NCBI GenBank assembly: GCA_025060135.1
Contig: JANXCY010000006.1
Location: 32,607-96,606, forward strand
Direction of reading: 5' to 3'
Length of the DNA stretch: 64,000 bases
DNA from: Anaerolineae bacterium
GTDB taxonomy: Bacteria; Chloroflexota; Anaerolineae; B4-G1; DUEL01
Positions within the stretch are counted from its first letter, which is position 1. Every line of letters begins with the position of its first letter. The position numbers were made by a program, and so were the translations under genes. Below, in pieces: positions 19,072-62,376 of this stretch. Under the pieces are notes generated by a model, which saw only the letters and a program-made list of their open reading frames with translations, did no database searches and had not been told where the DNA came from.

Positions 19072-19147
19072 GCGCAGGCCCGGCGGCCTGCGTTACACCG
19101 TAGCACCGGCTGTTCGCCTGGGGTTGCAGGCCCGGCGGCCTGGGCTA
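19072..19147. repeat. Two GCAGGCC-CGGC-GGCCTGC palindromic repeat units
   Basis: gcgcaggcccggcggcctgcgttac and ttgcaggcccggcggcctgggctac. Confidence 0.75.
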
Positions 19148-19216
19148 CAGGGCAAACTACGGAGATCCTATAAGGAGATTGGTCGCTTATCCCCTTCGCG
19201 GGTTTCAAAGTTCCCT

Positions 19217-26983: not shown

Positions 26984-27002
26984 TCCCAAAGCCCAAAGAA
27001 AA

Positions 27003-27115
27003 GCGGGGGGGGGGGGGGGGGGGGGGGGCCCCCCCCCCCCCGCGCCCCCCCCGGCGCCCCCGCCCCCGCCACCCCCCAACCCCCCACCCCCACCCCCCCG
27101 GGGGGGGGGGGGGGC
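27003..27115. other. Nearly pure G/C homopolymer block, probable artefact or gap-fill
   Basis: About 20+ G followed by C-only runs and a terminal G run; almost no A/T in a genome that otherwise has normal complexity. Confidence 0.8.
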
Positions 27116-27149
27116 TTTGCCGCCCGCCCTCCGCTTCAGGCCACCGGGT

Positions 27150-47609: not shown

Positions 47610-50600
47610 ATGAGATCCGCCATTAAAGCTCGTATACCGCAACTCCTGCTGGCTCCAGGGATTGGTCTGGCTCTGACGATGCTCCTGGTCCTCCTGCCGC
47701 CCGCCACCCATTCACTGGACGTGGCCCCTCCTTCGCGCCTCTGTTTTTGGTCCGATCAGGGGGTGGCCTGTGTGGAGCGAGCGCTACTCGCTGTGAGCAC
47801 TGCCGCAGCAACAGATGACACGGCCCGAGGCATAGCGCTCCTGCGAGCCCTCCTGGCTGGTCCCACCCCCCACGAGAAGGCGCAGGGACTCACCAGCGCG
47901 TTCCCGCCCGGCACTCGCCTGGCCGGTTTCCGCCTGGAGCCCCACCGTACCGCCGTAGTCCAATTGGAAGTCCCAGCGACGGCTCTCTCCCCCCTGGACC
48001 CCGCTGCCTTTGAGGCCATGGTCGGGCAACTGGCGGGGACACTGGAGCCGCTGGGTTGGCAAGACCTGCGGATTCAGACCCGCGACCCGGCCACCGGGGC
48101 CTTTATCCCTCTGGCGACCTTTCTGCCGGAGATGCCCGTACCCCGGAAGGAGACAGTAACAGCTGAAGTCGCCCCCCAGGAGCCTTCGGCCAGCGGGTCG
48201 GCCTTGTCCAACCTGGGGGAGACGTCAACGCAGGTGGACACTTGGCACGCCAGCGCCCAAGAAGGCCAATTTCTAATCGGCGCCGGCAGCCTGAAGGGCA
48301 AAACGGTCTACCTCAGCGCCGGGCACGGCTGGCTCTGGAACGGCTACCAATGGCGCACCCAGCGGCCCCCCTACCCCACCGCCCCCTACGTCGGCCCTAT
48401 CATTGAGGACCACAACAACGCCGAAGCCGTCAACCAGTACCTGGTCCGCTACCTCCAGAACGCTGGCGCCACCGTCATCCCCGTCCGGGAGCGGGATATG
48501 AACCCCGCCGCCATCGTCGGTGACAACGACAACCCCGGCAGTGGCTACGCCGAGACCGGGACCTGGATCACCAGCATTTATACCGGCTATCTGGGCAGTA
48601 CGTACCGCTACACGACCACTGTTACCGGCACCGCTACTGCTACCGCTACCTGGACCTTCGCTGTCCCCGCCGACGGGGAGTACGCCGTCTACGCCTGGTA
48701 CCGACAGGGGACCAACCGCGCCCCCGATGCCCGTTATACCATCCACCATGCCGGCGGCGCGACAGAAGTGGTGGTGGACCAGCGCATCCACGGCAATACC
48801 TGGCGGTATCTGGGCACCTTCGGTTTCCGCGCCGGGCAGGTCGCCACGGTCACCCTAAGCAACCGCTCGGCCTACGCGGGTCGGGCCGTGATCGCGGACG
48901 CCGTCCGGGTCGGCGGTGGGGTCTTCTCCAGCCTGACCGGTATCTACACCACGACGGCCCCCTACGCCCCCAACAAGCCCTGGTGGGAGGTCGCCGCGTA
49001 TTACCATGTCCAGCGCATGGGCCTGAATCCCTCCGGCTGGCCCTCCTACGGCTACTTCAACGACGTCGTCGCCCGGCCCATGTACGCCCGCTGGGAGCAC
49101 GCCGGGACCGGCGAGGATGCCCTCTACATTTCCTGGCATTCCAACGGGAGCAGTAGCGGCTACCAGACAACCACGCGGGGCACCGACCTGTACATCTACA
49201 ACGGTGAGGTGCCTACCCGTCCCGTTACTCCGGGCAGCACCGAACTCCGGGAGGCCCTGTTCACGGAAATCAGCCGTACCCTACGGGCCGCCTGGGACCC
49301 CACATGGCCCGTCCGCAAGCGGGCCGCCAACCTGGGCGAACTGCGGGAACTCTGGGACCCGGACCCCACTGTCCAGATGCCCGGTGTCCTCATAGAGGTC
49401 GCCTTCCACGACCATCCCACCGATACCGACGCGCTGAAGGAACCGAAGTTCAACCAACTGGTCGCCCGTGCCGTCTACCGGGGGATCATTCGGTACTTTG
49501 AGACCCGCAACGGGACAGACCTGCCGCTTCTCCCGGAGCCACCCACCCATTTGGCCGTCCGGAACCTGGGGGATGGACGGGTCCAGGTCTCCTGGCGGCC
49601 CCCTGCGACGAACACTCCCGGTCTGGAGAGCGACCCGCCCACCGGCTACCGGGTCTACACCTCTACCAACGGCGTCGGCTGGTCAGCAGCCGCGTTGGTC
49701 TCCACCACTGTCTACACCCTGACCGGTGTCCCGGCGGGGCAAATCCTCTTTGTCCGCGTTACCGCTGTGAATGGCGGCGGTGAATCCTTCCCAACAGAAG
49801 TACTGGCAGTCCGCGTGGCGCAGGCTGAAAGCCTGCGCGACCGCTCTAATGCCGTCAACCATAGCGAATCCTTCCCGAGGGAGGTGCTGGGGACCCTCAC
49901 CCCCTCCTCCGCACTTCCTCTCCCGCAAACAGGAGAGGAGGAAGCCGAAGGGGTAGGCATGAGGGCCCTCCTGGTCAACGGCTTTGACCGCCTGAACCGC
50001 GCCATGCTGATCCCGGAAACCGACCCGGTGATGGGCTTCAACCTGCGAATGCTCCTGAACCGGATGAACGCGCGCAACTACGTCCTCCAGCACGGGCCGG
50101 CGATCTCCTTACCCTTTGATAGCGCCAGCAACGAGGCCGTCCGGGATGGCGACGTCTCCCTGACCGAGTACGGGCTGGTGGATTGGATGCTTGGGGAAGA
50201 ATCCGCCGCCGACCAGACGCTGGACCCCACGGAGCGGGCCCTCCTGCGGGCGTATCTGAATCGGTGCGGGAGGCTTCTCATCAGCGGGACAGAAATCGGC
50301 TGGCATCTGGATGGCCAGGGTGCCGACCCGGACTTCTACCGCAACACCCTACGGGCCCGATACGTCGCCGATGACGCTGGAACCTATGGGGTTACCCCCA
50401 CCGCCGGCTCCATTTTCGCAGGCCTGGGGCCTTTCCGCTTTGACGCGCCCGGGATGTACGACCCAGACTTTCCGGACGTCATCAGTCCCACCGCCGGGTC
50501 GGTCGCCGCGCTAACGTACGTGGGCGGAACAGGCGGCGTCGCTGCCGTCCAGTACGTCAGCGACTGCTCCCGCCTGGTCTACCTGGCCTTTCCCTTTGAA

Positions 50601-51761
50601 ACGATAGACCTGCCAGCCCGTGCGGCAGTGATGGCGCGGGCTGTGGACTTTCTGCAGGCATCCGTCTCTACCGTCTCTATCCTTTCCCCCAGGCCCAACA
50701 ACGCCTACAACCACCCCCCGCCTTTCACGGGGACGGCCACAGCCACCCTGGGAACTCTCTCTCGGGTAGAAGTCCAGATTCAGCGAGAGGACCGGTACTG
50801 GTCCGGCAACGGCTGGGTCTCAGAGCCTCGCTGGCTCATGGCAACCGGCACGCTCACCTGGGCCTACGACCTGGCCCCCGCGCTGGATACAGATGGCGAT
50901 TACCATCTCCAGGCCCGCGCGGTGGTGGCGGGATGGCCTGCGGCAGAGAACCCGCCTTCTGCTTCCGCATCGTTTATCTACGACACCCGCCCCCCGGCCC
51001 CGGCGACCCTGATCACACCGACCGGCGGGGTCGTCCTCAGCGCGCTTCCCAGCCTGACGCTCCGGTGGGCCCTTCCGGCGCCCGACGGCGGCTCACCGCT
51101 GGCCGCCATCGTCGCGCTGGACGGGGAAGTCCTTACCATAACGACGGCCTCCGTCTACACCCTGACCACCATCGCGGAGGGTCCCCACACCTGGGGCGTG
51201 CAGATGGTGGACGGGGCCGACAACCGCTCCTCCTGGATCACCGATACTTTTGTTGTATCCCGCCACCGGGTCCTCCTGCCTCTGGTTCTGAGGGCTTTCC
51301 AGGGCCCCCCACCCTCGGGCCTGGTCAATGGCGGCTTTGAGACCGACGAGGGGTGGACCCTGAACCGGCTGGCTCTCTACGATACCTCCCTGGCCCGATC
51401 CGGTGCGCGGAGCATGCGGCTGGGCATCCCTCTAGGAGAACCTGGACAGTATGTCTACTCCTCCGTCTCCCAGAGTTTTGTGGTCCCGGACGGCCCGGCG
51501 ATCACCCTGAGCCTGTGGGTCTACCCTCAGAGTGCCGGAGACCGGGACGACGTATTTTACGTCAGCCTGTACGATGGGAACGGACAATTCCGCCTACTGG
51601 ACTACTGGTCTCCTGGCGGTCTGCCGGAGCGCACATGGACAGAGCGGAGAGTAGACCTGACGCCTTACGCAGGCCAGCAAGTTGTGATGTACATCGGAGT
51701 CAAGAACGACGGAGACGACCAGACCGCGGCTATGAATGTAGATGACGTGGGGATTCCGTAG
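47610..51761 (+). CDS. Large secreted N-acetylmuramoyl-L-alanine amidase (amidase_3) interrupted by a golvesin-like domain, followed by FN3 and further extracellular domains
   Basis: VYLSAGHGW ... EDHNNAEAVNQYLVRYLQNAGATVIPVRERD ... ISWHSNG ... VLIEVAFHDHPTD amidase_3 motifs; inserted Ig-like TGTATATATWTFAVPADGEYAVYAWY...ADAVRVGGG; FN3 PEPPTHLAVRNLGDGRVQVSWRPP. Confidence 0.85.
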   Translation: MRSAIKARIPQLLLAPGIGLALTMLLVLLPPATHSLDVAPPSRLCFWSDQGVACVERALLAVSTAAATDDTARGIALLRALLAGPTPHEKAQGLTSAFPPGTRLAGFRLEPHRTAVVQLEVPATALSPLDPAAFEAMVGQLAGTLEPLGWQDLRIQTRDPATGAFIPLATFLPEMPVPRKETVTAEVAPQEPSASGSALSNLGETSTQVDTWHASAQEGQFLIGAGSLKGKTVYLSAGHGWLWNGYQWRTQRPPYPTAPYVGPIIEDHNNAEAVNQYLVRYLQNAGATVIPVRERDMNPAAIVGDNDNPGSGYAETGTWITSIYTGYLGSTYRYTTTVTGTATATATWTFAVPADGEYAVYAWYRQGTNRAPDARYTIHHAGGATEVVVDQRIHGNTWRYLGTFGFRAGQVATVTLSNRSAYAGRAVIADAVRVGGGVFSSLTGIYTTTAPYAPNKPWWEVAAYYHVQRMGLNPSGWPSYGYFNDVVARPMYARWEHAGTGEDALYISWHSNGSSSGYQTTTRGTDLYIYNGEVPTRPVTPGSTELREALFTEISRTLRAAWDPTWPVRKRAANLGELRELWDPDPTVQMPGVLIEVAFHDHPTDTDALKEPKFNQLVARAVYRGIIRYFETRNGTDLPLLPEPPTHLAVRNLGDGRVQVSWRPPATNTPGLESDPPTGYRVYTSTNGVGWSAAALVSTTVYTLTGVPAGQILFVRVTAVNGGGESFPTEVLAVRVAQAESLRDRSNAVNHSESFPREVLGTLTPSSALPLPQTGEEEAEGVGMRALLVNGFDRLNRAMLIPETDPVMGFNLRMLLNRMNARNYVLQHGPAISLPFDSASNEAVRDGDVSLTEYGLVDWMLGEESAADQTLDPTERALLRAYLNRCGRLLISGTEIGWHLDGQGADPDFYRNTLRARYVADDAGTYGVTPTAGSIFAGLGPFRFDAPGMYDPDFPDVISPTAGSVAALTYVGGTGGVAAVQYVSDCSRLVYLAFPFETIDLPARAAVMARAVDFLQASVSTVSILSPRPNNAYNHPPPFTGTATATLGTLSRVEVQIQREDRYWSGNGWVSEPRWLMATGTLTWAYDLAPALDTDGDYHLQARAVVAGWPAAENPPSASASFIYDTRPPAPATLITPTGGVVLSALPSLTLRWALPAPDGGSPLAAIVALDGEVLTITTASVYTLTTIAEGPHTWGVQMVDGADNRSSWITDTFVVSRHRVLLPLVLRAFQGPPPSGLVNGGFETDEGWTLNRLALYDTSLARSGARSMRLGIPLGEPGQYVYSSVSQSFVVPDGPAITLSLWVYPQSAGDRDDVFYVSLYDGNGQFRLLDYWSPGGLPERTWTERRVDLTPYAGQQVVMYIGVKNDGDDQTAAMNVDDVGIP
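49818..49838. repeat. REP-like hairpin GCGCAGGCT-GAA-AGCCTGCGC inside the amidase CDS
   Basis: Perfect 9-bp stem, 3-nt loop. Confidence 0.8.
49893..49966. repeat. CCCTCACCCCCTC...GAGGGGTGAGGG-type palindromic element inside the amidase CDS
   Basis: ggaccctcaccccctcctccgcacttcctctcccgcaaacaggagaggaggaagccgaaggggtaggcatgagggc; imperfect stem. Confidence 0.65.
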
Positions 51762-54290: not shown

Positions 54291-54404
54291 TTTGCCGACC
54301 TGGACTCTTCCATGCCCGGGGGAACTTTCATCCCTCGGCATGGCCATTCCTGCTCCTTTCCACCTCTATTGCTTTTCCGCTCCCAAGAGGGGAAAGGGAA
54401 AAGG

Positions 54405-54585
<181 letters not shown>

Positions 54586-54724
54586 CCCCCTCCTTATCTC
54601 CTTCCCCTCCCCTGGGGGCAAGCAGCCTGCGCACCAGGGCCAACCGCCTCAGGCCCGTCCGAATGCAGGAATGGGCCATATCGCCACAGCCGCCTCCAGG
54701 GAAGCAAGTCTCTGAGGAACAACA

Positions 54725-62307: not shown

Positions 62308-62376
62308 AGCACAGGCGGTTAGCCTGTGCTCTGCAGGCCTGGCGGCCTGCGCTACAGGCCAGCGGCCTGCGCTACG
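62308..62376. repeat. Cluster of palindromic repeat units (AGCACAGGC/GCCTGTGCT and GCAGGCC-TGGC-GGCCTGC)
   Basis: Direct reading. Confidence 0.75.

Follow-up and report, generated by a model that had tools for sequence, protein, structure and literature searches.

A cell-wall amidase gene of a hot-spring Thermoflexus-group bacterium carries two kinds of hairpin repeat in frame

Palindromic repeats that are read in frame within protein genes are already known, both as the Rickettsia palindromic elements (RPEs) and as intragenic copies of REPs (Di Nocera et al. 2013, PMC3733652). The GTAG-tagged REPs are known from Chloroflexi (GTAG-23 of T. roseum), and intragenic in-frame GTAG or CGTC REPs have been described in several species in UvrD, UvrA, DnaE and tRNA synthetases (PMC3733652). 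In one case, recB of X. campestris and X. oryzae, an in-frame REP lies at the same site in related species (PMC3733652). RPE-1 and the other Rickettsia elements (Ogata et al. 2000, 2002) are presented in later reviews (PMC10969869, PMC2229807) as in-frame residents of protein genes.

The locus analysed here comes from a hot-spring bacterium of the Thermoflexus group, whose cell-wall amidase gene contains two kinds of hairpin repeat in frame. Within the window (the whole stretch of 64,000 nucleotides), the gene occupies positions 47610-51761 of the plus strand and, according to the open reading frame list and Pfam, encodes a secreted N-acetylmuramoyl-L-alanine amidase-like protein of 1383 aa with Germane (residues 67-146), Golvesin_C (305-434), Amidase_3 (492-627) and fn3 (644-733) domains. 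Of 60 related genomes, 53 contain a match to its product. An extra segment, VAQAESLRDRSNAVNHSESFPREVLGTLTPSSALPLPQTGEEEAEGVGMR (VAQAES...GVGMR), encoded on the plus strand at 49815-49964, follows immediately on the last fn3 strand (…ESFPTEVLAVR) and precedes the next domain, which begins ALLVNGFDRLN. It amounts to 50 residues beyond the orthologues of other genera, not the 49 given in an earlier note on this DNA; that note's central observation, of repeats lying in frame inside the 1383-aa ORF, is borne out by the ORF list and the sequence. The DNA of the segment consists, in order, of a 27-nt REP palindrome, a diverged second fn3 end and a CCCTCACCCC…GGTAGGCATGAGGG palindrome, called element 2 below. 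A frameshift or pseudogene is ruled out, since the frame is open throughout and the downstream part is orthologous to relatives.

Outside the genus the orthologues have no such segment, as had been anticipated. Orthologue alignment shows the joint in sister genera and families to be short (AVRV-GNTAG-VLLVNGFDRLN; ESFPTETLAVRV-GNTAG-VLLVNGFDRL), at 5-9 residues in other genera, whereas the six genus members with data all have linkers derived from repeats. In a fold model of a 381-aa fragment, made from six sequences and of low confidence overall (mean pLDDT 45), the 50 residues separate the last fn3 strand from the strand that follows, with pLDDT values of 21-30 and no secondary structure.

The REP palindrome (49815-49841, plus strand, 27 nt, GTGGCGCAGGCTGAAAGCCTGCGCGAC) is read as VAQAESLRD. 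Its core is a perfect 9+3+9 hairpin, GCGCAGGCTGAAAGCCTGCGC, at 49818-49838, with a single-stranded DNA fold of -12.9 kcal/mol (z -5.85). Only five REP-hairpin sites with up to three mismatches are present in the window, where 0.1 would be expected, while GCAGGCTnnnAGCCTGC has 96 sites (up to two mismatches) in the 2.29-Mb assembly compared with eight for the reversed control pattern. Across the genus the consensus is GTAGCGCAGGCTGT[C/T]AGCCTGC, found at anything from a few sites to more than 100 per genome, with 96-110 per strand in one relative (G006). These site counts and controls rule out a chance resemblance to repeats. Among 41 close copies in the genome, 29 are non-coding and 12 lie inside genes, the genome having been sampled in stretches, genes called from ORFs, codon-position GC, Pfam and orthologues, and ORFs whose REP precedes their first domain (FGGY, alanine racemase, AlaRS-like) counted as non-coding. 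The REP is mostly intergenic, in line with the earlier description.

The GTAG tag places this repeat with the GTAG-REPs of PMC3733652. It is a member of that kind, being a stem-loop of 20-40 nt with a GTAG end in the consensus, a high copy number and a mostly intergenic distribution; in the window copy this end is GTGG, with one mismatch to the tag. A RAYT gene in the genome is a common but non-universal trait of GTAG-REPs. PF01797 has no match in the 94.9%-complete window-genome assembly, in a search whose controls were positive, and a RAYT was accordingly rejected as mobiliser of the REP.

The arithmetic of the consensus, GTA GCG CAG GCT NNN AGC CTG CGC TAC, shows how it can be read in protein genes. 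At 27 nt it is a multiple of three; frame 1 (VAQAxSLRY) is open for any non-stop loop codon, frame 2 (SAGxQPA) is closed only by a loop ending in T, and frame 3 is closed, beginning with a TAG stop. All intragenic REP copies use the two open frames and none the closed one, and it is because of this arithmetic that the peptides VAQAxSLRY and SAGxQPA appear. A GAA loop occurs in 5-6 of 11-12 intragenic REPs as against none of 29 non-coding copies (Fisher p 0.0002-0.0007), perhaps because coding constraint has preserved an older subfamily or because a charged residue is favoured by selection. Another REP-like palindrome, GCAGGCCnGGCGGCCTGCGTTACA, is seen at 19074-19149 and 62309-62356 of the window, in tandem and often adjoining the main REP; the two may pair as units of a REP dimer.

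Element 2 (49894-49965, plus strand) is about 72 nt long, runs CCCTCACCCC...CTCTCCC...GGAGAGG...GGCATGAGGG and is read as TLTPSSALPLPQTGEEEAEGVGMR(A). Its hairpin (CCCTCACCCCCT...GGCATGAGGG) is degenerate in the window, with a z of -1.87, and strong in G001 and G005, with z about -6.7. The pattern CCCTCACCCCC-n-CCTCTCCC finds 1 to 63 matches per genus genome, the 63 being in G005, and 0-1 in controls. The intergenic label, which the earlier note gave to both repeats, mostly fits the REP but is too simple for element 2: three of the four pattern matches in the window assembly are inside genes and the fourth is in a poly-G/N region. The scarcity of intergenic matches is partly due to the tendency of contigs to break at intergenic copies. 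Long poly-G/poly-C stretches also occur at 26990-27132 and 54390-54640 of the window, resembling those at the amidase joint of G006 and at L115; errors of sequencing or assembly at G-rich palindromes are their probable origin.

The two repeats have different histories at the amidase joint. Relatives compared within the genus included Thermoflexus sp. RSWP15, Tumba.bins.32, Thermoflexales MAG-30, S1_Bin_9 and SKYB113. Element-2 relatives occupy the joint in all five of the other genus members with data (G001, G002, G004, G005 and G006), and the REP is absent from these at this place, the REP and duplication being confined, among the genus members with data, to the window genome. Since every genus member with data has it, element 2 probably entered in the genus ancestor, with the REP and the doubled fn3 end being specific to the window genome.

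The first copy of the fn3 end (49764-49808, plus strand, AVNGGGESFPTEVLA) is the predicted last fn3 strand by sequence and orthologue alignment, and corresponds to a strand modelled, with moderate to low confidence, at residues 92-96 of the 381-aa fragment. The second (49851-49892, plus strand, AVNHSESFPREVLG) is diverged and falls outside the predicted fold. The copies share 21 of 29 core matches, where the best of 300 codon-shuffled genes reached 20. Thus the diverged duplication proposed in the earlier note exceeds chance, but it flanks the REP only and not the whole insert. As copy 2 is closer to the fn3 end of G001 (41/51 nt) than to copy 1 (30/51 nt), the duplication is more likely to be a recombination scar than part of the insertion mechanism. 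Furthermore, the pre-element end AVRV is kept by copy 1 only, and the phylogeny changes across the joint. Upstream, the window genome and G006 are sisters (support 100/100) with 91% DNA identity; downstream, they are 81% identical and not sisters. Yet no member of the genus is more distant than G006 in LeuRS, UvrD, GH38 and GrpE. Recombination inside the linker is the simplest reading of this conflict. A poly-G stretch lies exactly at the amidase joint of the G006 contig and, for that reason, part of the mosaic signal could come from a chimeric contig.

Alternatively, the doubled end could be an old tandem duplication in the window lineage into which a REP was later inserted, with no recombination between lineages. 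Two in-frame copies on either side of a REP, and the small size of the duplication, are what such an event might leave. We nevertheless think it rather unlikely, given the affinity of copy 2 for the G001 end, albeit in a comparison of 51 nt, the restriction of AVRV to copy 1 and the disagreement of the trees upstream and downstream.

It is also conceivable that the window joint is an assembly artefact, a chimeric join of two strains at the repeat that gave rise to the doubled fn3 end. All the genus genomes are fragmented MAG-type assemblies in which contigs break at these repeats, and the joint here coincides exactly with a repeat. The same element marks a contig end or start in G004 and G005, the G004 contig stopping inside the element-2 hairpin at the amidase joint; G006 has poly-G junk there, and the window-genome assembly has poly-G/N junk at another copy (L115). 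Against this, the sequence of the window joint is clean and stays in frame over the 1383-aa ORF, and repeat-derived linkers are found independently at the same place in five other assemblies and in other genes. A chimera, which we regard as improbable, could account for the duplication but not for the phenomenon.

The explanation we favour, and hold to be very probable, is that the segment is an inter-domain linker made from two mobile or repetitive palindromes, which landed in frame in a tolerant joint between fn3 and the following domain. Element 2 would have arrived in the genus ancestor, been kept as a disordered linker and then drifted. In the window lineage, recombination within that linker would have brought together a REP and its accompanying fn3 end, of foreign or divergent origin, with the native fn3 end and its element 2, a step expected to leave the fn3 terminus doubled. 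The linker is best read as near-neutral and tolerated, with selection acting only to maintain frame and solubility.

Both repeats also lie in frame in the genes of other proteins, as the earlier note had suggested might be found. Inside genes of the window genome, the REP occurs in the amidase, UvrD, LeuRS, GH38 mannosidase, GT4, DnaE, GrpE, an IstB/DnaC-like ATPase and IleRS, the in-frame copies in UvrD, LeuRS, GH38, the GT4 glycosyltransferase, DnaE and GrpE having Pfam support. The GT4 identification comes from the Pfam match of L092, and its REP is counted as intragenic accordingly. In the IstB/DnaC-like ORF (L086) the REP is near the N-terminus and the start codon is uncertain, and the IleRS match (L098) lacks the GTAG tag and is possibly due to chance; a clear REP is present in IleRS of another genus member (L196). 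REP peptides in other members of the genus are found in IleRS, GNAT, GT4 and FGGY proteins. UvrD has four tandem REP units between UvrD_C and the tudor domain, while in LeuRS the REP lies at the joint of the catalytic and anticodon parts. In the UvrD linkers of two species the REP unit is tandemly multiplied with a 24-nt period (L088 6870-6960; G003:C7:2697-2795). A third type of repeat is seen at the LeuRS joint of G004 (L124), where NVIASEAKQ (ATCGCGAGCGAAGCGAAGCAA) adjoins the REP in frame.

Orthologue alignments show gain and turnover at the REP sites. GrpE has gained RSAGSQPTL (+6 aa) in the window genome only, GH38 of G005 contains a fresh VAQAVSLRP, and the LeuRS copies in G002 and G006 have decayed. 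MutS and Mfd both carry element 2 in frame, and the peptide it encodes there (LTPSPAASGGFPLPLSR…GEGEGGRGxGVR) is shared with the G001 amidase, to the extent that a tblastn search with MutS retrieves Mfd and the G001 amidase through it; the element-encoded peptide had no match in the plasmid collection. In MutS, element 2 stands in place of a native linker of similar length. Its orientation is reversed between species, a pattern suggesting that a single tolerant joint has undergone repeated insertion, or inversion. The repeat-derived segments of MutS and LeuRS are no longer than the native ones, so that 'insertion' there means replacement, and to judge from the alignments the repeat has in several genes supplanted native linker sequence with no gain in protein length. 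Throughout the genus the in-frame repeats are in loops, linkers and disordered tails.

The distribution of these copies bears on whether the palindromes might be retained because an mRNA hairpin acts at the domain boundary, by pausing the ribosome for folding, by attenuation or by protecting the mRNA. They do recur at domain boundaries (amidase, UvrD, LeuRS), and the hairpins in G001 and G005 are very stable, but hairpin strength is not conserved, with degeneration in the window and decay in LeuRS of G002 and G006, and intragenic REPs occur in disordered N-termini (GrpE) too; we consider such a role very unlikely. That the segment is an ordinary lineage-specific low-complexity linker whose DNA merely resembles repeats is scarcely credible: fast-evolving linkers of GC-rich genomes are often rich in P, S, G and E, and element 2 of the window is degenerate, but there is a perfect 21-nt hairpin from a 96-copy family, the same DNA and peptide appear in unrelated proteins, and strong hairpins are found at the same position in G001 and G005.

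A lead on the mobility of element 2 comes from a minus-strand ORF of G004 (L073, G004:C19, 1-2370). It encodes a STAND-type P-loop NTPase, named from sequence motifs, with three in-frame CCCTCACCC elements (element 2), and Pfam matches only a DUF559 domain (E 3e-34) lying between two of the copies. DUF559 is a Vsr-like nuclease of the PD-(D/E)XK type. This arrangement led us to survey the surroundings of plasmid-borne solitary DUF559 genes from several phyla (Azospirillum, Deinococcus, Sphingomonas, cyanobacteria and others). Of 20 loci, 17 have a pyrimidine-armed ('C-first') hairpin no more than 200 bp away on one side or the other, and five of these have one on each side, for example the Deinococcus paa locus (L272); the purine-first mirror control gave none in 20. 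Counted by flank, hairpins are present in 22 of 40 DUF559 flanks and in 28 of 188 control gene-end windows (15%) from four of the same replicons, with a Fisher p of 3e-7 that is optimistic, the hairpin rule having been chosen once 12 of the 20 loci had been seen and related strains contributing several of the loci. DUF559 genes were absent from the stretches sampled in the window genome and from viral contigs, and a full-text literature search of a limited collection for DUF559 together with palindromes returned nothing relevant.

On this sequence evidence DUF559 is a candidate mobiliser of pyrimidine-armed palindromes. We tentatively suggest, as a possibility that falls short of even odds, that the CCCTCACCCC-type palindrome is the non-autonomous form, and the solitary palindrome-bordered DUF559 endonuclease gene the autonomous form, of an unrecognised RAYT/REP-like class of selfish element, whose insertions in Thermoflexales became in-frame linkers in MutS, Mfd, the STAND-type NTPase and the amidase. 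Should the link to DUF559 prove right, it would supply a candidate enzyme for bacterial palindromes of a widespread orphan class, and their mobility could be tested directly.

Parasitic repeats thus supply new protein linkers as a genus-wide habit. The earlier interpretation of selfish repeats as a source of new inter-domain linkers agrees with our results, both repeats being multicopy and read in frame in other protein genes of the genus. What is new is the stacking of two families in one linker, the re-use of the same joints throughout the genus, replacement without net growth and the association with DUF559. These free-living thermophiles form a second well-populated natural system for the question raised by the RPEs in 2000, namely how often selfish palindromes turn into protein sequence and what decides the places where they are tolerated. 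The MutS, LeuRS, UvrD, GH38 and amidase joints, each available from at least six species, let one follow how repeats insert, replace native sequence, decay and insert again.

How do these repeats relate to the systems already described? Like known GTAG-REPs, the REP is a short palindrome with a GTAG end and many mostly intergenic copies, and here too it enters UvrD, DnaE and LeuRS. It differs in that the window genome has no match to an IS200/IS605-type RAYT (PF01797), in being joined at one joint by a second, unrelated palindrome family, and in the GAA loops of intragenic copies. Other translated MITEs (ERIC, Correia, QMITE1) are likewise non-autonomous repeats whose open frames have become part of host ORFs (PMC2229807, PMC10969869), but here neither terminal TA nor target-site duplication is seen, and the association with DUF559 is the only transposase link. 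The likeness to Rickettsia palindromic elements noted earlier holds at the level of behaviour. These too, according to the reviews, are in-frame palindromes in conserved protein genes, at positions expected to be tolerant and with a recurring peptide, and element 2, at about 72-110 bp, is close in size to RPE-1, at 105-150 bp. The CGTC terminal tag and Rickettsia origin of RPE-4/RPE-6 are replaced here by a GTAG tag and by Thermoflexus/Thermoflexales/Anaerolineae relatives. Phylum and sequence are different, element 2 being a pyrimidine-armed GC-rich palindrome, and in MutS it appears to replace a native linker with no net growth. Element 2 behaves in the manner of an RPE without belonging to the RPEs.
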